Of a DNA stretch of 32,441 nucleotides, positions 5,410 to 31,680 are shown one piece after another. The stretch's first letter is position 1, and each line of letters opens with the position of its first letter. The stretch is from a bacterium (GTDB taxonomy: Bacteria > Patescibacteriota > Microgenomatia > UBA1406 > GWC2-37-13). The notes below the pieces were generated by a model. It was not told where the DNA came from. It saw only the letters and a list, made by a program, of their open reading frames with translations, and ran no database searches. The translations under genes and the position numbers were made by a program. The stretch spans positions 1 to 32,441 of the forward strand of contig JAKQDR010000198.1 of the NCBI GenBank assembly GCA_029573715.1. Direction: 5' to 3'.

Positions 5410-5436
5410 GTTATTTTTTTGTACACCCGCGCTCAG

Positions 5437-5478
5437 CAGGTGGCACTTTTCGGAGTGTCACCTGTTTTTTTGTGTTTT
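5437..5478 (+). terminator. Rho-independent terminator after the primase-helicase
   Basis: The arms CAGGTGGCAC and GTGTCACCTG (5437-5446 and 5455-5464) form a 10-bp stem with one G-T pair around an 8-base loop. Seven T residues and a T-rich tail follow directly. It lies 28 bases after the primase stop, so it should end the early/replication transcript before the repeat cluster. Confidence 0.85.
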
Positions 5479-5481
5479 CAG

Positions 5482-5528
5482 CGGCATGAATGCCGATATT
5501 TACAACATTAAATTGTCGTTTATATCGG
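5482..5528. promoter_or_regulatory. Nested inverted repeats, possible regulator binding site
   Basis: CGGCAT-GA-ATGCCG (5482-5495) is a perfect 6-bp inverted repeat. It overlaps a second pair, CCGATAT (5493-5499) and ATATCGG (5522-5528), which encloses ACAA/TTGT (5502-5505, 5513-5516). The 12-mer ATGCCGATATTT (5490-5501) recurs at 29110-29121, where the same two heptamers form a tighter dyad over a promoter-like element. A shared operator is an inference; the repeats themselves are seen directly. Confidence 0.4.
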
Positions 5529-5604
5529 AATACCCTGAAAAATGCCTATTTTTAGGCGAAAAAAAATTCATTTTTTTTCAAAAGTAGATATATGTTGAAA
5601 AAAC

Positions 5605-5864
5605 GCAACCAGAGGCCAAAAAAGGGTCGAGTTTCCATAAAATCACCCCTTAATATATTGTATATCAGTGTATTATCTTGGTTGCGTTTTGGTTGCGTTT
5701 TGGTTGCGTTTCCCTATGATTTTGGCGCAACGGTTGCGCCATTTTTGAAGGTTGCGAAAAATGGCGCAACCAGAAGCCCAAAAGTTGCGCGGTTGCGTTT
5801 CAGTTATTCCTTTGATATTCAATTAATTAAGTGCTTTTTTATCCCCCGGTTGCGCGGTTGCGCC
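5605..5864. repeat. GGTTGCG repeat cluster, candidate replication origin (iterons)
   Basis: This covers most of the one long gene-free stretch (5410-5924). GGTTGCG occurs on the + strand at 5680, 5691, 5702, 5732, 5750, 5791, 5848 and 5856, and reversed as CGCAACC at 5605 and 5765; a partial copy GTTGCG is at 5785. The first three are an exact 11-base tandem (GGTTGCGTTTT), one helical turn apart. GGCGCAAC-G-GTTGCGCC (5724-5740) is an 8-bp inverted repeat. A/T-rich stretches (5651-5677, 5818-5832) flank the dense part and could melt. Placement next to the primase-helicase, regular spacing and the melting regions fit iterons of an origin. A repressor operator array is the main alternative. No convincing gene lies here. 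Confidence 0.6.
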
Positions 5865-5924
5865 AAAAAAAGGGGTTACCTGTGGAGCGACATATATTTT
5901 TTTCAACCTTAAAATCATGTAAAA

Positions 5925-6200
5925 ATGACAGCAAAAATCAAAGCTTTTGACCCTCATTCTACAGCTTCTTTTATCCATCCATCTGACGAAGACGAGATCA
6001 TCCGCCATGAGATAGCTCAGATGCAGCGGCGCAATGATCAAGCCCTCAAAGAAATCGAAGCCCGCAATCAATTGATCGACTATCTGCGCTCATCCTGTAC
6101 ACACGACTGGCAAGACTATGAAGATGACGTCTTAGGCACGATGCGAGCATGCACGATCTGCGGCAAGGTCTCAGATGGAGGTCTCTGTCCTATCCGGTAG
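5925..6200 (+). CDS. Small protein with putative zinc-binding C-terminus
   Basis: A 91-residue protein. Residues 22-55 are charged and probably helical (DEDEIIRHEIAQMQRR...). The end carries SCTHDW (C58, H60) and RACTICGKV (C76, C79), plus C88. C-x-H with a later C-x2-C-G is a plausible zinc ribbon of a type seen in many small phage proteins. It is the first gene after the repeat cluster and lies just upstream of the lysis genes. No specific function recognised; nucleic-acid or protein binding is a guess from the zinc site. Confidence 0.65.
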   Translation: MTAKIKAFDPHSTASFIHPSDEDEIIRHEIAQMQRRNDQALKEIEARNQLIDYLRSSCTHDWQDYEDDVLGTMRACTICGKVSDGGLCPIR

Positions 6201-29963: not shown

Positions 29964-29991
29964 GGCGCACCAGCACAGGTGCGCCCTTTCA
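29964..29991 (+). terminator. Terminator after the two-gene accessory transcript
   Basis: GGCGCACC (29964-29971) pairs with GGTGCGCC (29978-29985) around a 6-base loop, followed by CTTTC and A-rich DNA. The perfect 8-bp G/C-rich stem fits a terminator, with a weak T tract on this strand. Confidence 0.6.
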
Positions 29992-30042: not shown

Positions 30043-30050
30043 TATCTTTG
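30043..30050 (+). promoter_or_regulatory. Promoter -7 element for the leader-XRE operon
   Basis: TATCTTTG matches TAnnTTTG exactly. Start of transcription would be expected about five to eight bases downstream, near 30055-30058, which is where the folded leader begins. No clear -33 element is visible in the A-rich DNA before it. Confidence 0.55.
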
Positions 30051-30054
30051 TATC

Positions 30055-30187
30055 GACAACAATATCGACGGGACAATCCTCGATTTATTTTTTTTAAACG
30101 ATAAGAGCGTATCTACGGGTATCGTAACCGAAAGGCCGAACAAATCCATTCCGTCGAATGTGTTGTCAACCCTAAGGGTGCGCTCGC
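30055..30187 (+). ncRNA. Structured RNA leader (candidate regulatory RNA)
   Basis: GACAACA (30055-30061) pairs with TGTTGTC (30161-30167) and TCGACGG (30065-30071) with CCGTCGA (30151-30157), giving 14 base pairs with a symmetric 3x3 internal loop. The enclosed 79 bases hold ACGATA/TATCGT (30098-30103, 30120-30125) with a small inner CGT/ACG pair, a CC-GAAA-GG tetraloop (30128-30135), and a T-rich run (30085-30095). ACCC-TAA-GGGT (30169-30179) follows. It begins at the expected transcription start and ends 20 bases before the 30208 ATG. No known riboswitch class is recognised; a leader that controls translation or attenuation, or a free small RNA, is possible. The pairing is seen directly, the function is inference. 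Confidence 0.5.
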
Positions 30188-30207
30188 ATAATTAAACCTT
30201 TTTTGAT

Positions 30208-30552
30208 ATGACAACAAAAGAGAATGTAGGCACAGGTACCGATACGGCCACCACTACACCACGACCACAGGATGAGAAAATCATCTCTGTAGATTTCTAC
30301 AAGTGCATAGAAGACTTCTTCTTGCTAAATGATCCACACGACTATCAGCACTTTAATAAGGAGATGCTGAATATCTTCATGGATCGCGTTCTTGACGGTG
30401 ACGAGGAGTTTGATCCGATCTACGTAAAGAATGCCATCTTCATTATCAACGAACAAAGCAAATTTCTCGTTGAGCTCAAAGAGAAGTGGGAGCGATATAA
30501 AAAACTTGCACAATTAAAGGCTCTATTAATTTCAATTTGCACCGATGGATGA
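30208..30552 (+). CDS. Hypothetical protein behind structured leader
   Basis: A 114-residue protein. A Thr-rich disordered start (MTTKENVGTGTDTATTTPRPQ) leads to a helical acidic part (DFYKCIEDFFLLNDPHDYQHFNKEMLNIFMDRVLDGDEEFDPIYVKNAIF) and a Lys-rich helix at the end. No family recognised. Its stop overlaps the ATG of the XRE gene by eight bases, so they are cotranscribed and probably coupled. It is the first gene after the structured RNA. Confidence 0.6.
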   Translation: MTTKENVGTGTDTATTTPRPQDEKIISVDFYKCIEDFFLLNDPHDYQHFNKEMLNIFMDRVLDGDEEFDPIYVKNAIFIINEQSKFLVELKEKWERYKKLAQLKALLISICTDG

Positions 30553-30982
30553 AGCTATCAACATCATCATCACCCAGCTCATCCGGCCACGCATGGATGA
30601 GCTGGGCCTATCGGAGCGACAGCTCGCCATCGCATCCGGCATCAGCCAGTCACAGGTCAATGCCTGGCTCACCGGCAAGAGCGATATCACGCTCACTAAG
30701 TTCTTCATGATACTCCGTACGCTCAGGATCTCACCGCAATACAGCACAGGTGACACCGCCGAAGCTGCAGATACACAGTTCCAGGTCGAGGCTGCCGGCC
30801 GTGATACATGGCGATGCGTCGATGTGACGCATGGTTTTTTTGTGACTTGGAAGGCAGGCCTATTTAATGATACATCAAAGGTCAAGTGGTATCAAGATCA
30901 GCCACAAGATGTAGCACATATAGCACGTCTTATGCGGATGATGGGAGACTGGTTATTTTTGCATCATCCGGAAAAATTATAG
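30545..30982 (+). CDS. XRE/Cro-type helix-turn-helix protein
   Basis: A 145-residue protein with an XRE HTH at about residues 20-60: LGLSERQLAIASGISQSQVNAWLTGKSDITLTKFF, matching the pattern in which Q-L-A-x-x-x-G-x-x-x-x-x-V-x-x-W lies in two helices. The C-terminal 85 residues are unrecognised and may sense or dimerise. It overlaps the gene before it and ends two bases before the PLD-like gene. It is a candidate regulator of the dyads at 29098 and 5493 and the promoter at 30043 (inference). Confidence 0.8.
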   Translation: MDEAINIIITQLIRPRMDELGLSERQLAIASGISQSQVNAWLTGKSDITLTKFFMILRTLRISPQYSTGDTAEAADTQFQVEAAGRDTWRCVDVTHGFFVTWKAGLFNDTSKVKWYQDQPQDVAHIARLMRMMGDWLFLHHPEKL

Positions 30983-30984
30983 AA

Positions 30985-31680
30985 ATGTTCAAAGAAAATA
31001 ACGATACATCATTTGAGATCAACCTCGGCCACTTTGACACCGATTTCAAGACAAAGGTCAGCGCTGATTTTGACACTCGATACATCAAGCCAAAGTATCA
31101 TCACGTGCCGCCGGAGCGATATGCAAAGTATGCACGGGCGGAAGATCTCGCAAAGGTCACAGACCTGAGCGACGGCAGCAGGATGTTTGCCATTATCAAT
31201 GGCAGCTTCATTTTCGGTGATTACATTGAGGCGCTTGCCGTCACCTATGATCTCGGCATCAAAGAGATGACCATCTCGACGTTGTCTTTCTCAGAAAATA
31301 ATGTCGATAGCCTCGCTAACCTCATGAACGGCGGATATCTCGACCATCTAAATGTGATAGTTTCTGATTACTTTTTCTCGCACGAGCGCAACAATCTCAT
31401 CCGATATGCTTACAAAGAACTGGATATCGACAATAGATTTCAGCTATCCGTGGCCGCCACACACTGCAAAATGACGATATTCGAGATCGACGACGGGCGC
31501 AAAGTCGTCATTCACGGTAGCGCTAACTTGAGATCTTCCGGCAATATAGAGCAGATCTGTATAGAAGTGAACAGCGATCTATATAATTTCAATTTTGAAT
31601 ATCAGCAGAAAATCATAGAAGAATATAAATCCATTGATAAGTCCGTGAGGTATAATAACCTCTGGGACACCATTACATAA
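30985..31680 (+). CDS. Phospholipase D-like (HKD-type) nuclease-like protein
   Basis: A 231-residue protein from the ATG at 30985; an in-frame extension upstream overlaps the XRE gene and is less likely. The segment THCKMTIFEIDDGRKVVIHGSANLRSSGNIEQ gives H160-x-K162 and G178-S179-x-N181, the HKD motif of the PLD superfamily, though the expected Asp after HxKx4 is Glu167. Only one HKD half is present, as in PLD nucleases that dimerise. The N-terminal part has a predicted strand-helix core (RMFAIINGSFIFGDYIEALAVTYDL). It might cut nucleic acid or be a structural relative; the Glu leaves activity open. It follows the XRE regulator by two bases. Confidence 0.65.
   Translation: MFKENNDTSFEINLGHFDTDFKTKVSADFDTRYIKPKYHHVPPERYAKYARAEDLAKVTDLSDGSRMFAIINGSFIFGDYIEALAVTYDLGIKEMTISTLSFSENNVDSLANLMNGGYLDHLNVIVSDYFFSHERNNLIRYAYKELDIDNRFQLSVAATHCKMTIFEIDDGRKVVIHGSANLRSSGNIEQICIEVNSDLYNFNFEYQQKIIEEYKSIDKSVRYNNLWDTIT

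Follow-up and report, generated by a model that had tools for sequence, protein, structure and literature searches.

A leader RNA of a Bacteroidota-like phage very probably belongs to the C4 family of antisense RNAs and would cover a start codon

An operon of uncharacterized genes on a 32,441-nucleotide contig (JAKQDR010000198.1, assembly GCA_029573715.1; the whole stretch is called the window here) follows what appears to be a structured leader. The question raised by this locus is what kind of RNA that leader is. A sequence-only reading knew of no riboswitch or small RNA class with such a layout, and it proposed a regulatory leader, an attenuator, or a free small RNA. However, the leader falls among the C4 antisense RNAs of Rfam clan CL00128 and is nearest to the family c4-2. 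Sequence comparison gives us high confidence that it is a C4-family antisense RNA of a Bacteroidota phage. All coordinates below are window positions, and all features are on the forward (+) strand.

The leader begins at a Bacteroidota-type −7 promoter element (TATCTTTG, 30043 to 30050), a consensus element that had already been recognized, and its spacing is conserved in homologues. From this element, transcription would begin at approximately 30051 to 30055. Farther upstream, a predicted hairpin at 29964 to 29985 (GGCGCACC-AGCACA-GGTGCGCC, 8 bp, −17.3 kcal/mol), followed by CTTTC, is a probable terminator of the upstream operon, a role that we infer with caution because the T tract is short. 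Downstream, the putative target gene (30208 to 30552), whose start codon would be the antisense target, encodes 114 amino acids and has no Pfam match. It is overlapped by a gene for a 145-amino-acid Cro/C1-type helix-turn-helix (HTH) regulator (30545 to 30982; Pfam HTH_3, E = 2.9e-9). The third gene (30985 to 31680) encodes a 231-amino-acid protein that is weakly PLD nuclease-like (PLDc_2, E = 0.01, below the Pfam cutoff). Pfam searches found no antirepressor domain in this operon.

The sequence-only reading had described a 14-pair long-range stem with a symmetric 3-by-3 loop, and this stem is real: 30055 to 30071 pairs with 30151 to 30167 through 14 Watson-Crick pairs. GACAACA (30055 to 30061) pairs with TGTTGTC (30161 to 30167), TCGACGG (30065 to 30071) pairs with CCGTCGA (30151 to 30157), and the internal loop between these helices is ATA/ATG. 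Two more pairs, G30072-U30150 and A30073-U30149, extend the inner helix. RNAfold assigned pair probabilities of 0.77 to 0.99 to the long stem and only about 0.5 to 0.6 to the internal hairpins. Folding energy alone is weak (z = −0.85 for the 165 nt; z = −2.1, p = 0.033 for 30055 to 30167), and the 32-kb window has about four other inverted repeats of equal quality. Even so, conservation, as judged by comparing sequences, lifts the long stem far above chance.

Homologues were sought with a covariance model, R1, built from the single leader sequence. R1 had matches in 4 of 395 Bacteroidia genomes, with E values down to 1.5e-8. Two weak R1 matches (L211 and L212, 23 bits) were discarded because they are without the C4 core described below. 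Among 380 genomes of the assembly's own phylum, the leader model gave no credible match (the best had 23 bits and was without the core). We also scanned IMG/VR with a DNA pattern from the common core (CCGAAAGG, 24 to 36 nt, CAACCCTAA), which returned 45 stretches, and about ten different ones were confirmed by R1. Fifteen distinct copies make up alignment A5, and five further copies were checked afterwards. DNA similarity searches with the leader and operon against 72 genomes of the window's family and the phage collection yielded nothing useful. Protein searches with the 114-amino-acid protein, the HTH regulator, the PLD-like protein, and a 163-amino-acid protein found no leader-bearing relatives. 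The loci of TerL and portal relatives contained no leader homologue except for L187, a weak R2 match that serves as out-of-sample evidence. An exact 20-mer match in a Bacteroidales genome (L125) was a coincidence inside a proA-like gene, and matches to GACAACANNNTCGACGG in viral contigs were due to chance only.

The homologues divide the long stem into four elements. Its 5′ arm consists of a1 (30055 to 30062, the 5′ end of the proposed transcript) and b1 (30065 to 30073), and its 3′ arm consists of b′ (30149 to 30157) and a′ (GTGTTGTCA, 30160 to 30168). The partnership of a1 with a′ rests on pair counts in 15 homologues, given below, and that of b1 with b′ on the energies of the a1b1:a′b′ duplexes. 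These averaged −24.6 kcal/mol for native arms and −9.7 kcal/mol when arms were swapped between homologues, and the native partner was the best one in 14 of 15 copies. Across the homologues, the stem covaries and is very stable, with 16 to 20 pairs and energies of −22 to −29 kcal/mol. The b1:b′ pairing is present in every one. In 15 of 15 homologues, the same 3 nt of spacing separates the sequence TATNTTTG from the 9-nt a1 window. This constant spacing supports the proposed transcription start.

This long stem, as first described, accounts for only half of the RNA; the sequence-only reading had missed the second, pseudoknotted half (stems P1 and P2, 30105 to 30187). The whole RNA is a two-part pseudoknot, in which a1b1 pairs with b′a′ inside the loop region of a C4 fold. 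The unconstrained minimum free energy structure of 30105 to 30187 is that C4 fold, with closing stem P1, stem P2, and tetraloop hairpin P3 (z = −2.5), and the core, stems P1 to P4, also follows from an alignment to Rfam c4-2 (RF02944). Stem P1 pairs 30105 to 30113 with 30177 to 30185; it is paired in 96% of cells, 6 of its 8 pairs are changed on both sides, and its strands have −17.7 kcal/mol when native and −8.2 kcal/mol when swapped. In stem P2, GGGT (30117 to 30120) pairs with ACCC (30169 to 30172), with 95.6% of cells paired and two pairs doubly changed. P3 (30122 to 30139) pairs 30122 to 30124 with 30137 to 30139 and 30128 to 30129 with 30134 to 30135, and it carries the GAAA tetraloop noted in the sequence-only reading (CC-GAAA-GG, 30128 to 30135). 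Its tetraloop pairs are kept in 94% of cells; the outer three pairs are present in only 59% yet include double changes. Hairpin P4 (CATTC-CGTC-GAATG, 30147 to 30160) presents b′ and is mutually exclusive with b1:b′ pairing; 76.5% of cells are paired, and 5 of 5 pairs are doubly changed. A second small hairpin proposed earlier (ACCC-TAA-GGGT, 30169 to 30179) more likely represents the 3′ strands of stems P2 and P1.

Over 17 copies of the core, 86.7% of cells were paired, compared with 71% after shuffling and 30 to 45% when strands were slid, and 17 of 23 pairs had double changes, although these statistics lean favorable because the alignment was fitted to the structure. In an independent MAFFT alignment, 86% of cells in stem P1 were paired, and double changes occurred in 5 of its 8 pairs. 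Overall, compensatory changes occur in five helices. They are found in both of the stems for which the sequence-only reading had proposed to look for them. Directly 5′ of stem P1 is a conserved motif, ACGATAA (30098 to 30104), which is the expected RNase P cleavage site if the C4 RNA of phage P1 is a guide; ACGATA or ACAATA occupies this side of the stem in nearly all homologues in A5. We also observed that two motifs flank stem P1 in A5, ACGATAA(G) before it and CGCATACA after it (30098 to 30104 and 30185 to 30190 in the window). A TTTTCGAT-like motif, which resembles ACGATAA(G), lies 5′ of the start codons of many homologues.

How does this RNA relate to known families? At its own cutoffs, Rfam had no match in the window. 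The c4-2 model aligned over its full length (1 to 79 of 79) to 30105 to 30187, with 26.8 bits and an E value of 0.0015 on 348 nt. That score is below the RF02944 gathering score of 41, so we place the window copy in the C4 group but outside RF02944 itself. Two relatives, L215 (53.6 bits) and L238 (41.4 bits), pass the cutoff. Most members of the subgroup have no c4-2 match at E < 1, and Rfam therefore misses the group. The C4 model proper (RF01695) had no match at its gathering score and none listed up to an E value of 2, with only the best match per clan given.

The family c4-2, reportedly described in a 2017 paper, shares with the window RNA the order of stems, a GGG(U) P2 strand, a purine-rich tetraloop hairpin, and CCTAA between the 3′ strands of P2 and P1. 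Both c4-2 and the window subgroup are present in Bacteroidia. A search with RF02944 found one Bacteroidia genome (G729) with six c4-2 copies over the cutoff; one of the six (L215/L273) is also in the window subgroup. Several of the copies in this genome (L267 and L269 to L273) precede related genes (MSTxxxLSKExE...), as if multiplied in one host. In the five classic c4-2 copies (L267 and L269 to L272), the repeated target is upstream of the ATG (for example, CCTAAATTACAGAGTTATGAG), whereas in the window subgroup it comprises the start codon and the codons directly after it. The subgroup also differs from classic c4-2 in its longer, continuous a1b1 stem and in the two flanking motifs. The c4-a1b1 motif of Weinberg et al. 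(2010) is a possible further relative: its name is alike, and its a′ and b′ elements reportedly have complementary segments, a1 and b1, lying upstream. It is listed for gamma-Proteobacteria and phages and not for Bacteroidota.

The C4 RNAs of phages P1 and P7 (RF01695, immI operon c4-icd-ant) share with the window RNA the leader position, a three-stem fold with a tetraloop, and a′ and b′ elements (PMC5320573, PMC8198154). Phage P1 has the gene order c4, icd, ant (PMC8198154), and a small gene and then an antirepressor behind the RNA are common to P1, P7, and relatives of the window RNA (PMC8198154). Five relatives have an antirepressor as the first or second gene: AntA (L250 and L232), Bro-N (L256), P22_AR_N (L221), and KilA-N with ANT (L234). 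In L213 (1686 to 2182) and L216 (1944 to 2410), small gene pairs beside the C4 unit have, by eye, a RelE/YafQ-type toxin-antitoxin look. In phage P1, RNase P cleaves on the 5′ side of stem P1 to free a 77-nt C4 RNA, whose a′ and b′ elements bind the target (PMC5320573). Because C4 RNAs arise as a leader and, in phage P1, are then excised (PMC5320573), the names regulatory leader and free small RNA both fit. The window RNA differs in having a Bacteroidota promoter. It also differs in its target: in phage P1 the ribosome-binding site is partly masked by b′, and a′ attaches upstream of that site (PMC5320573), whereas in the window RNA a′ would cover the start codon.

That last point was overlooked in the layout proposed earlier. 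A copy of the 5′ arm lies on the start codon at 30208, and the a′ arm (TGTTGTCA) pairs with both a1 and this start codon (aTGACAACA). The target element, a2 (TGACAACAA, 30209 to 30217), comprises positions 2 to 10 from the A of the start codon, a register termed ATG+1, and makes 8 of 9 pairs with a′. In the homologues, a′ was taken as the 9-nt element directly before (CA)ACCCTAA, and it pairs with a1 and a2 in all of them. Over 15 homologues, a1:a′ had 127 Watson-Crick pairs of 135 (permuted mean, 77; maximum, 101; 20,000 permutations) and a′:a2 had 111 of 135 (permuted mean, 78; maximum, 96), so that the match has a permutation p of <5e-5. Part of the a′/a2 likeness across relatives is shared ancestry, and the permuted mean of 78 of 135 is that background. 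The element-wise test was preferred over the a1:a′ count in A5, where 53% is an understatement because MAFFT does not bring the uneven 5′ ends into register. The a2 register is ATG+1 in 15 of 15 aligned homologues. It is also ATG+1 in 5 of 5 copies outside the alignment (L264, L187, two in L238, and L268), each with 8 or 9 of 9 pairs. The three-way match is thus present in 20 of 20 copies, always at ATG+1, though the sequence of the element varies. In L234, two units about 1.5 kb apart have different a′ elements, and each fits its own start codon. These tandem units (985 to 2620) each precede a RadC-like gene, and the KilA-N/ANT gene is between them. The viral contig L238 also has two c4-2-like units, and a′ matches the start codon at 9 of 9 positions in both (ATGCAAACC and ATGCGTACT). 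For b′, we saw only partial matches near the start codon, by eye (TTCAGA in L213 and TTTGAT, with two G-U pairs, in the window). Genes of Bacteroidota mostly have no Shine-Dalgarno sequence, and an a′ element placed on the start codon itself fits this.

These comparisons suggest the following mechanism. The nascent RNA would carry a1b1 at its 5′ end, followed by the C4 core, and a′ and b′ may fold back on a1b1. If processing is as in phage P1, a cut 5′ of stem P1 would release the core (about 30105 to 30187) from the transcript. Once free, the C4 RNA would use a′ (UGUUGUCA) to pair with the downstream mRNA over its start codon and first codons (AUGACAACA) and would block translation initiation at 30208; the translationally overlapping genes behind the target gene may be silenced too. 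The a1b1 arm would hold a′b′ in the unprocessed transcript or serve as a second binding site. Because the genes behind it in relatives include antirepressors, the RNA would keep the prophage repressed, and it would give immunity to phages carrying the same a2 sequence. The C4 fold, the three-way match, the promoter position, and the antirepressor neighbors are each supported by comparison of homologues; cleavage, action in trans, the effect on translation, and immunity are carried over from P1 and P7.

Could the leader act purely in cis, with the a1b1:a′b′ hairpin serving, for example, as a transcript stabilizer or translation switch and no free RNA being made? The length, stability, and covariation of the long stem would suit such a role, as would the presence of a1 and a2 in the same transcript, where they compete for a′. 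However, a cis hairpin has no need of the core, and stems P1 to P4 covary strongly. Furthermore, the core matches an Rfam small RNA family whose relatives in P1 and P7 are processed, trans-acting RNAs (PMC5320573). A purely cis-acting leader is therefore improbable.

Two other explanations have very little to recommend them. A metabolite riboswitch or transcription attenuator would be expected between a promoter and a start codon, and the leader does have alternative pairings, but no Rfam riboswitch model matched it, and the stretch from the leader to the target gene yielded no intrinsic terminator. We saw no sign of the attenuator proposed earlier. In addition, the most variable parts are the paired arms, which covary with the start codon, unlike a ligand pocket. 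This explanation is highly unlikely. It is just as hard to credit that there is no RNA, only a chance fold or a DNA inverted repeat acting as an operator or packaging site. The weak folding z scores (−0.85 to −2) and the similar inverted repeats elsewhere in the window would fit, but compensatory changes in five helices, the fixed −7 spacing, and the start codon match across 20 copies do not. Counting against the C4 reading are the score of the window copy below the c4-2 cutoff, the lack of c4-2 matches at E < 1 in most subgroup members, and a window operon in which no antirepressor was recognized. We conclude from the sequence comparisons that the leader RNA represents no new RNA class; it is a diverged Bacteroidota variant of C4 that can pair over the start codon itself.

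What is a Bacteroidota RNA doing in this assembly? TerL and portal both had their best match in Polaribacter phage Leef_1 (26 to 28% identity), and identity to IMG/VR contigs reached 44%. By sequence, these relatives place the phage among those of Bacteroidota. The assembly, in contrast, is assigned to a small-genome lineage, whose family and phylum members mostly have 0.5 to 1.5 Mb. Given the Bacteroidota-like phage genes and the promoter type, the contig is probably a mis-binned Bacteroidota phage. Elsewhere in the window, a probably noncoding stretch of about 515 bp (5410 to 5925) follows the primase gene. It contains many GGTTGCG(C/T) repeats, which run in both orientations, together with direct 15-mers spaced 11 bp apart and a perfect inverted repeat of 15 bp. 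In these features it resembles a replication origin of the iteron type.

C4 RNAs are a classic case of phage immunity, and to our knowledge the experiments on them rest on P1 and P7 only. A covarying C4 subgroup with antirepressor operons, missed by the Rfam cutoff, can now be placed in Bacteroidota phages. The a1/a′/a2 triplet predicts the target of each RNA letter by letter, so target choice and cross-immunity become predictable from sequence. On balance, we lean toward the broader view that Bacteroidota phages carry a distinct, unmodeled C4 subfamily, with a 9-nt element over the start codon that is duplicated at the 5′ end of the transcript, and that promoter-proximal RNA, antisense RNA, and start codon coevolve as an immunity code. 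If so, the pattern of immunity between phages would follow from differences among the codes of related or tandem prophages. By pairing over the start codon of the next gene, the leader RNA probably helps to keep the prophage silent and immune. An unknown structured leader of an uncharacterized operon has thus become a concrete hypothesis about the genes that may control a lysis-lysogeny switch.
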